Positions 14,889 through 24,092 of a stretch of 64,000 bases of DNA are shown here, piece after piece. Numbering within the stretch: the first letter of the stretch is position 1; each line of letters starts with the position of its first letter. The translations under genes and the position numbers were made by a program. The notes beneath the pieces are model-generated. The model worked only from the letters and a program-made list of their open reading frames with translations. It made no database searches and was not told where the DNA came from. Source of the DNA: Clostridiales bacterium (GTDB lineage: Bacteria; Bacillota; Clostridia; Lachnospirales; Lachnospiraceae); contig JAJBVD010000083.1 in the NCBI GenBank assembly GCA_020859985.1, forward strand, positions 1-64,000, given 5' to 3'.

Positions 14889-15791
14889 ATGAGTAAAAAA
14901 GAAAAAGCGGCAGAGCTGGCACGAATGGCCGGAGGGCTGGCAATGGAACTGATGTATCCGTCACGCTGTCCGCTCTGTGACCAGCTTCGCCCTGCACTTC
15001 GCCTGCGAAGCGTCTTTCAATGGGCGAAGCAACCTGCCGCCGAGCGAAGAGAGGTGGCGTTACCCGAGCTTCGCCCTGCACTTCGCCCAGAACCCGTCTG
15101 TGCAGACTGTCGTGAAAAACTGCCCTGGGTCAGGGAACCTGCGTGTATGAGATGCGGTAAGCCGGTGGGGAGTCCGGAAGCGGAATTCTGTCGGGACTGC
15201 CTGCGTACCAGCCATCTTTTTGATCAGGGAAGAGCGGCGTTTACCTACAGCGGCGCGATGCGGCGCAGCGTGTATCGGATGAAAGCGCTGAACCGCCGCG
15301 ATTATCTCGATTTTTATGCGGATGCGATGGTACGTGCTGGCAGACGGTATCTGGATGCATGGCGGCCGGAGGTGATCGTGCCGGTTCCCATGCACTGGAA
15401 AAAGCGCGCTGCACGCGGCTATAACCAGTCGGAACTGCTGGCGGTCCGGGTGAGCCGTCTGACCGGAATTCCCTTTGACCGCAAGCTGCTGTACTGTATT
15501 CGTTATACCGGTGTTCAGAAAGAGCTGGGGCGTGAGGAACGCCTGAGAAATCTTCGGGGAAGCTTTGAAGCGCGCAGGCTGGAGAAAGGCCGAAGGTATG
15601 AGCAGTATGATGGACGATCCGGGGCTCCTTCGAGTGTTTTACTGATTGATGACGTTTATACGACCGGCAGTACAATGGATGAGGCGGCGAGAGCTTTGCG
15701 GGCTGTTGGTGTGCGGCATATTTTTTTTCTCGTTTTGTGCACCGGTGCGACGGAGCGCGATCGGATTATGCCCCGAAGTATAGCTGACTGA
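14889..15791 (+). CDS. comF: ComF family phosphoribosyltransferase-like protein with insertion
   Basis: A 300-residue ComF-type protein, associated with DNA uptake. The N-terminal zinc finger is recognisable (CPLC, then CADC, CMRCGK and CRDC) and the C-terminal PRTase loop VLLIDDVYTTGSTMDEA is intact (about residues 254-270), as is VPVPMHWKKRAARGYNQ. Between CPLC and CADC there are about 45 residues where relatives have roughly 15-20. The extra segment contains a 21-nt direct repeat (14983-15003 and 15067-15087) that gives LRPALR twice, and resembles palindromic repeat DNA elsewhere in the window. ATG 14889 has a weak ribosome site. It ends the mreB-recD2-comF cluster. Confidence 0.88.
   Translation: MSKKEKAAELARMAGGLAMELMYPSRCPLCDQLRPALRLRSVFQWAKQPAAERREVALPELRPALRPEPVCADCREKLPWVREPACMRCGKPVGSPEAEFCRDCLRTSHLFDQGRAAFTYSGAMRRSVYRMKALNRRDYLDFYADAMVRAGRRYLDAWRPEVIVPVPMHWKKRAARGYNQSELLAVRVSRLTGIPFDRKLLYCIRYTGVQKELGREERLRNLRGSFEARRLEKGRRYEQYDGRSGAPSSVLLIDDVYTTGSTMDEAARALRAVGVRHIFFLVLCTGATERDRIMPRSIAD
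14983..15087 (+). repeat. In-frame repeat insertion inside comF
   Basis: AGCTTCGCCCTGCACTTCGC plus C occurs at 14983-15003 and again at 15067-15087, 84 nt (28 codons) apart, so the unit keeps the frame. The intervening GCGAAGCGTC...GGGCGAAGCAACC is partly complementary to the repeats, giving a palindromic element. Confidence 0.75.
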
Positions 15792-23633: not shown

Positions 23634-23691
23634 TCCGAGATAATTCTGTTTTATTATATTAAATCATATGTTTTGAAAATATAAAAATATA

Positions 23692-23720
23692 TTGCAAATT
23701 ATTTTCACATGTGTTATATT
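23692..23720 (+). promoter_or_regulatory. Promoter for a short convergent RNA
   Basis: TTGCAA (23692-23697), exactly 17 nt, TATATT (23715-23720). Transcription would begin near 23727 and meet the terminator at 23765-23796. No open frame lies in between, so an RNA product is expected. Confidence 0.6.
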
Positions 23721-23726
23721 GGCTGC

Positions 23727-23803
23727 TGTAAAGATCAGAAGAAGTTCCATAATGAGAGAAAGCGAAAACCCCGGATGTTGCAGCATCTGGGGTTTTCTAT
23801 TCC
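23727..23803 (+). ncRNA. Candidate antisense RNA (type I antitoxin-like)
   Basis: About 75 nt from the predicted start to the end of the U-run after the hairpin. It is complementary to the 3' untranslated part of the small-peptide message on the other strand if that message ends at the same bidirectional terminator. This is the geometry of TxpA/RatA- and BsrG/SR4-type systems of Bacillus. Existence is inferred from promoter plus terminator only. Confidence 0.5.
23765..23796. terminator. Bidirectional terminator of the small-peptide locus
   Basis: AAAACCCCGGATG (23765-23777) pairs with CATCTGGGGTTTT (23784-23796), apart from one G-T pair. There are A/U runs on both sides, so it can end transcripts from both strands. 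Confidence 0.85.
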
Positions 23804-23841
23804 TTTTTGGTGGCGGCTTACACCACAGGCTGTTTTCCGAA

Positions 23842-23928
23842 TTACTTTATCCCGTCCAGCCATTTGATGATATAGTGCGTAACTACATCACACGTGACGG
23901 TAATCAATAGAATCAGAAGATATTCCAT
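23842..23928 (-). CDS. 28-residue hydrophobic peptide, type I toxin-like
   Basis: On the minus strand, ATG 23928 starts a 28-codon frame: a hydrophobic stretch MEYLLILLITVTCDVV then THYIIKWLDGIK. One transmembrane helix followed by a short polar tail with KWLDG is the layout of small toxic membrane peptides (TxpA/BsrG/Fst-like) and of unannotated peptides in gut clostridia. The Shine-Dalgarno is exceptionally strong, AAAGGAGGTGAT, close to full anti-SD complementarity. A promoter lies 40 nt upstream of that site region (23977-24005, minus strand). The leader contains GTTACCACCTC (23970-23960), which can pair 9 of 11 positions with the SD region, so translation may be masked. Toxicity is inferred. 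Confidence 0.65.
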   Translation of the reverse strand: MEYLLILLITVTCDVVTHYIIKWLDGIK

Positions 23929-23976
23929 ATGGTATCACCTCCTTTCTGTACCTTATGTAGAGGTGGTAACAGAAAG

Positions 23977-24005
23977 ATAATATCACATAATATAAATGCA
24001 TGCAA
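23977..24005 (-). promoter_or_regulatory. Promoter of the 28-residue peptide
   Basis: Minus strand: TTGCAT (24005-24000), 17-nt spacer, TATTAT (23982-23977). Predicted start near 23970. A second possible pair, TTGCTT with TATAAT, lies further upstream on the same strand (about 24025-24055). Confidence 0.6.
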
Positions 24006-24092
24006 TAAAAACTAGCTCACAAATATTATAATAACATTTATACAATAAGCAAGTTGATTTAGAGTAAGGCCATATGAATAAAAAGAATAATA

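Follow-up and report, generated by a model that had tools for sequence, protein, structure and literature searches.

The RNAs of the TxpA/RatA and BsrG/SR4 modules are convergent and overlap at their 3' ends, as do those predicted for the locus described here, and neither module is known to have a repeat at the toxin start codon. The par loci, as described in PMC7472228, have convergent promoters, a common terminator, and direct repeats through which RNA II is positioned over the initiation site; their toxins carry a Trp residue between the transmembrane helix and a charged tail and mostly a P/D/S/TXXXG motif, and the YUNR U-turn is absent from some par homologues (PMC7472228). The type I toxins of C. 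difficile resemble the family reported below as small membrane toxins in Clostridia with a convergent antisense RNA, but differ from it in their length of 34–59 aa and long complementary region (PMC6563280) and in a lysine-rich C-terminus (PMC7699646); the term "direct repeat" is absent from the main text of PMC7699646. According to PMC6563280, a previous search had detected Fst-like sequences in two Clostridium species only. In pneumococci, the 239-nt sRNA F66 was reported in 2012 (Mann 2012; PMC3395615), and srn502, F66, and Spd_sr109 form a single entry in PMC12323649. Spd_sr109 has been described as an mRNA that encodes the toxin of a par-homologous, uncharacterised type I toxin-antitoxin module with Srf-27 as antitoxin, the toxin mRNA being generally more abundant than the antitoxin, with RNA-seq and northern levels that disagree in part (PMC9812572). 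The statements of these two sources (PMC12323649; PMC9812572), taken together, imply that F66 serves as toxin mRNA in a pneumococcal type I module homologous to par.

The locus lies in a window of 64,000 nt, which is the whole stretch of DNA that was analysed, and its features are collected in Table 1. Its neighbours, as read off the open reading frames, are presumably pyrD and spoIIR. The 28-codon hydrophobic frame ending in KWLDGIK and the unusually strong Shine-Dalgarno sequence named in the initial annotation are both present, the latter forming with its gap and ATG a pattern that occurs once in the window against 0.01 expected matches. The strongest feature of the locus, overlooked in that annotation, is the imperfect direct repeat, whose two copies are identical at 16 of 18 positions. 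Transcription reads the second copy in the reverse orientation, so that the 5' arm of the convergent RNA would be complementary to the beginning of the toxin frame (start codon and first codons), and the duplex of repeat arm and toxin start has an energy of −26.5 kcal/mol. The locus resembles pAD1 par (Fst, RNA I/RNA II) in its convergent promoters, a putative common terminator, and a repeat by which the antitoxin would be directed to the start codon (PMC7472228), but it has no PXXXG motif, its peptide tail is short, the terminator loop (CUGCAA, read by eye in the window) lacks a YUNR U-turn, and a single interrupted repeat stands in place of the two, DRa and DRb, described for pAD1 par (PMC7472228). 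A matched repeat at the start codon belongs to the anatomy of Fst/par modules and not to that of TxpA/RatA, and the locus, judged by its sequence, is very probably an RNA-controlled type I toxin-antitoxin module of the Fst/par kind.

Table 1. Features of the candidate toxin-antitoxin locus, in window coordinates.
Feature	Position	Strand	Remarks
Antitoxin RNA promoter TTGCAA-N17-TATATT	23692..23720	+	TG before −10; 9/12 consensus bases
Predicted antitoxin RNA	23727..23805	+	~79 nt; both ends inferred from promoter and hairpin
Direct repeat, second copy TATGGAACTTCTTCTGAT	23734..23751		just beyond hairpin
Predicted toxin mRNA	23752..23981	-	whole length matched by Rfam RF02442
Terminator hairpin, common to both genes	23764..23797		15 pairs; good tail on + only
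Toxin ORF	23842..23928	-	28 aa; one hydrophobic stretch, then KWLDGIK
Direct repeat, toxin copy TATGGAATATCTTCTGAT	23912..23929	-	start codon and first codons
Shine-Dalgarno sequence AAAGGAGGTGAT	23934..23945	-	pattern search
5' leader GTTACCACCTC	23960..23970	-	at or near predicted RNA 5' end; can pair with GGTAC or Shine-Dalgarno sequence
Toxin promoter TTGCAT-N17-TATTAT	23977..24005	-	TG one base 5' of −10

Other elements proposed in the initial annotation held only in part. Both promoter sequences are present, but with 5 matches in the 1.2 kb around the locus against 3.0 expected, single promoter matches at the window locus are not above chance and are convincing only family-wide. An antisense promoter with at least 9 of 12 consensus bases was found at 133 of 144 loci compared to 23 of 144 shuffles, and a toxin promoter of this quality at 92 of 142 loci compared to 18 of 142 shuffles (one shuffle each in both cases); the distance from the antisense −10 element to the hairpin is narrow across the family (quartiles 38–45 nt). 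The toxin promoter in the window itself has 8 of 12 consensus bases, counted by eye as was its TG. These frequencies argue for convergent toxin and antitoxin promoters, a trait of Fst/par loci, as a property of the family. The terminator had been considered bidirectional; its hairpin exists, and across the family it lies past the toxin stop codon, but the terminator scan scores it on the plus strand alone and the tail on the toxin strand, CGCTTTCTCT, is a poor U tract. Pairing of the leader with the Shine-Dalgarno sequence is possible in the window, but the mean longest run in 139 leaders (6.55) hardly exceeded that in mismatched (6.40) and shuffled (6.38) controls, and runs of at least 6 were found in 118 of 139 leaders (85%) against 73% in either control. 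As the mean run was not clearly above the controls, this pairing was dropped as a candidate for a conserved switch. Folding of the 5' leader likewise gave a divided result: the family leaders form more stable folds than their shuffled counterparts (mean z = −1.6; n = 137), and a 5' stem of at least five Watson-Crick pairs occurs in 44 of 137 leaders compared to 20% of the mismatched and 10% of the shuffled pairs, which points to a modest enrichment, but RNAalifold detected no structure in the aligned leaders.

The search for KWLDG-type relatives suggested in the initial annotation found peptide, hairpin, and repeat conserved together, with promoters enriched on both strands. The toxin frame is under coding constraint across the family, the differences at codon positions 1, 2, and 3 amounting to 392:162:573 in 84 family pairs. 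A Trp motif of the KWLD type, located between the transmembrane stretch and the charged C-terminus, was found in 145 of 145 members. In register with the Fst motif, position W−13 is occupied by Ala, Ser, or Thr in 140 of 144 family peptides (Ala in 72) and W−9 by Gly in 89 of 144; the window peptide reads TXXXD, with Asp rather than Gly at W−9, and its tail, DGIK, is short and weakly charged.

To assess the repeat, each toxin start region (−30 to +45) was compared with the 80 nt following its own hairpin and with the corresponding 80 nt of every other locus. A first set of 123 loci yielded 122 ORFs, with 9 further matches excluded because they had no acceptable start codon; after 2 ORFs whose downstream sequence was too short and 22 near-duplicates had been removed, 98 remained, for which the own region scored 33.0 and mismatched regions 16.3, and 80 of 98 ranked their own region first. 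The window locus was among these, with a score of 28 against a 99th percentile of 27. From 91 further loci 98 ORFs were obtained, of which 53 were removed as short or alike; the 45 that were kept, unlike the first set in sequence, gave 36.0 for own and 16.9 for mismatched regions, with 40 of 45, including 11 of 11 mobile copies, ranking first. In the pooled non-redundant loci (n = 145) the own region scored 33.9, compared to 16.4 for those of other loci and 15.5 for shuffled sequences; 117 of 145 ranked first, and the highest of 2000 permutation means was 17.6. The 28 of 145 loci that failed to rank first include, among the weak ones, locus L105 of the window's own genome. Of the ORFs from viral contigs and arrays, some of which are duplicates of one another, 26 of 33 ranked first against the pooled set. 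The window genome carries six copies of the module, and for each of the six toxin starts the energetically most favourable partner is its own antitoxin arm (6/6), the margin being small for the window toxin start (−25.8 kcal/mol with its own arm, −23.9 kcal/mol with that of a paralogue). Direct repeats that would place the antitoxin on the toxin initiation site, a further Fst/par trait, are thus indicated for the family, and in convergent promoters, direct repeats, and Trp placement together the clade agrees by sequence with the par loci. As most copies possess a private repeat, the antitoxins are predicted to act preferentially on their cognate toxins. A proposed role of chromosomal antitoxins in guarding against mobile toxins received no support, scores of at least 30 being reached in 4 of 1474 mobile-toxin/chromosomal-antitoxin pairs and in 141 of 17822 chromosomal pairs.

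None of the curated models in NCBIfam and Pfam, including PF13955 and NF033608, matched the window peptide. At E ≤ 1, the Fst models NF033608 and PF13955 matched 6 and 2 of 46 family members, respectively, and PF13955 exceeded its cut-off in none of 60 genomes; its matches in genomes of the host family were discarded as noise, as it also matches 7 of 14 control genomes. Weak matches were obtained with NF047374, the NCBIfam model of C. difficile type I toxins (11 of 46 members; best 2.7e-4), with phrog_738 (PHROG 738, unknown function; 18 of 46; best 3.4e-4), and with the unrelated-looking Pfam model DUF2158 (12 of 46). These profile matches suggest that the NF047374, NF033608, and PHROG 738 families may be connected. 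The closest described relative emerged at the RNA level: Rfam model RF02442 ("Streptococcus sRNA SpF66", SpF66_sRNA) matches the predicted toxin mRNA of the window end to end with 35.8 bits, below the gathering score of 42. Of 20 relatives scanned, two (L048 and L063) were above this score, as were 3 of 10 mobile records, all three streptococcal and encoding KWLD peptides (114.9, 102.9, and 93.8 bits); of the remaining mobile records, 3 matched below gathering and 4 had no match at E ≤ 0.001. Within the genus, 30 of 47 genomes matched at E ≤ 0.01, one of them over the cut-off, compared to 1 of 14 control genomes and none over the cut-off. By eye, a 32-codon frame with the C-terminus CKWLDGKE can be read in the printed consensus of RF02442, and the name of the model and its length of 239 nt indicate that it derives from F66. 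The pneumococcal Srf-27/Spd_sr109 module (F66, srn502; PMC9812572) thus resembles the window locus in the full-length covariance-model match, the KWLDG frame, and the antisense antitoxin RNA; it differs, as compared via the Rfam model, in being distant (35.8 bits against 42) and in having DXXXG in the consensus frame against TXXXD in the window peptide. RF02442, labelled an sRNA, appears to be a toxin mRNA, and the label should probably change. A match of the antitoxin to ctRNA_pGA1 (30.1 bits, gathering 45) was set aside as a G + C hairpin match. Elsewhere in the window, at 14980–15068 on the plus strand, a GA-cis RNA candidate was recorded (RF02987; 37 bits, gathering 34.7).

With the window peptide alone as query, 32 of 47 genomes of the genus matched at E ≤ 0.1, and a 23-row profile gave matches at E ≤ 1e-3 in 90 of 299 sampled genomes (~30%) of the host family. 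A 46-row profile matched 52 of 295 genomes in the order, 24 of 391 in the class, and 16 of 398 in the phylum, samples that also include nearer relatives and in which a few matches at the weak end fall within long frames and are questionable. Both pyrD and spoIIR are shown at 11 of 30 genus loci examined; among these 11, the module is intact in the window alone and interrupted by a short repeat in one more, a pattern of presence and absence that fits gain and loss of the module. A repeat of ~75 nt with a palindromic start was observed between the toxin and the terminator of one paralogue (L002, from position 1605); it has four near-full-length copies in the genome with 77–100% identity (G000 C38:69820–69894, C5:11483, C82:19339, and C53:58061), and a similar repeat interrupts the toxin at pyrD-spoIIR in another species (L230). 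Tandem arrays with copies ~400–600 nt apart were found in three genomes: L300 (G1313:C28) comprises six modules in 2.5 kb and a seventh farther off, L302 (G1178:C23) four, and L301 (G1303:C4) three. In the L300 and L302 arrays 9 of 11 copies ranked first in the repeat test, as if the copies were kept mutually specific.

The plasmid collection contained 11 records matching at E ≤ 1 (weakest 0.8), among them the pneumococcal pSpnP1 and plasmids of Mogibacterium, Waltera, Lactococcus, and Enterococcus; no listed gene lies under any of the 11 matches in a gene table that describes itself as incomplete. In the phage collection there were 7 matches, three of them in bajarodino viruses and two in streptococcal satellite phages. 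Of these 18 records 11 were examined. Two bajarodino viruses among them are classed as Inoviridae and encode Zot and a replication initiator, and pSpnP1 has an annotated Zot-domain protein and Rep. When the Zot proteins of L221, L222, and L223 were used as queries, no Zot was recovered from the remaining 8 examined mobile records or from 12 viral contigs, and the L221 protein did not recover those of L222 or L223; a wider link to inoviruses was dropped. In an inovirus survey (PMC6813254), the toxin-antitoxin pairs described are of type II except for one of type IV, and all but one pair are proteobacterial. It is conceivable, and proposed here only tentatively, that these modules represent the first recognised case of type I addiction on inoviruses of Gram-positive gut bacteria and that the same clade fills chromosomes, partly as tandem arrays, with mutually specific toxin-antitoxin RNA pairs; the Zot searches, which yielded no further inovirus among the mobile records, make this reading slightly less probable.

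Preferring an Fst/par module departs from the initial annotation, which had taken TxpA/RatA and BsrG/SR4 as its model. In such a module the antitoxin would pair only with the 3' end of the toxin mRNA and trigger decay, which suits the convergent genes with their common hairpin, and TxpA-like sequences in C. bolteae are cited by PMC6563280. However, a repeat over the toxin start that is matched locus by locus is needless for 3'-end pairing alone, and no TxpA-type model is among the NCBIfam and Pfam matches of the family (libraries which may hold none); with its start-codon repeat and full-length RF02442 match the locus fits Fst/par better, and a TxpA/BsrG-like module is judged highly improbable. 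Somewhat less so, yet still unlikely, is a conserved membrane peptide under antisense control that is not a toxin and serves, for example, as a regulator of a membrane enzyme. Coding constraint on the frame is compatible with this proposal, and the toxicity of the peptide is a prediction, but carriage of the module by small plasmids, inoviruses, and a satellite phage, its presence or absence at one site, and its tandem arrays all suit an addiction module better.

The proposal that deserves least credence is that the hydrophobic ORF next to the pyrD terminator is decayed or arose by chance. Relatives in 90 of 299 family genomes, the matched repeats, and the codon-position bias contradict it, and for the family it is refuted by the joint conservation of peptide, hairpin, and repeat, even if the single promoter matches at the window locus are near chance and the 11 genus loci with pyrD and spoIIR hold one intact and one interrupted copy. 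For the preferred Fst/par module, the minus strand would be transcribed into a short mRNA for the 28-residue membrane peptide and the plus strand into an antitoxin RNA of ~79 nt ending in the same hairpin. The two RNAs would meet at their complementary hairpin loops and pairing would spread to the direct repeat, where the 5' arm of the antitoxin would cover the toxin start codon and first codons and block translation, neutralising the presumed toxin; the duplex is probably marked for decay. On plasmids and inoviruses, the module would probably keep the element in the cell.

The kind of module is already known, whereas the locus itself and its examined plasmid relatives are without annotation; the claim that it was new therefore holds for the locus and not for its kind, as the par-homologous pneumococcal module had been described. 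Anatomy and conservation support a chromosomal type I module in Lachnospiraceae that was overlooked because of its size, and the clade seems to have been missed with genes of ~28 codons and scores below the family models. Queries of the open-licence literature by title and abstract start found no paper on the module in Lachnospiraceae, and the KWLDG/KWLDR/CKWLD motif gave one match there, which was unrelated. What looks new is the scale, with ~30% of sampled family genomes, tandem arrays, small plasmids, and the two inoviruses examined. A type I module on Gram-positive inoviruses would extend the survey presented in PMC6813254. The family comprises many relatives that lack annotation, in gut Clostridia, on small plasmids, and in some filamentous phages, and its locus-specific repeats offer many natural toxin/antitoxin RNA pairs for studying the evolution of antisense specificity.
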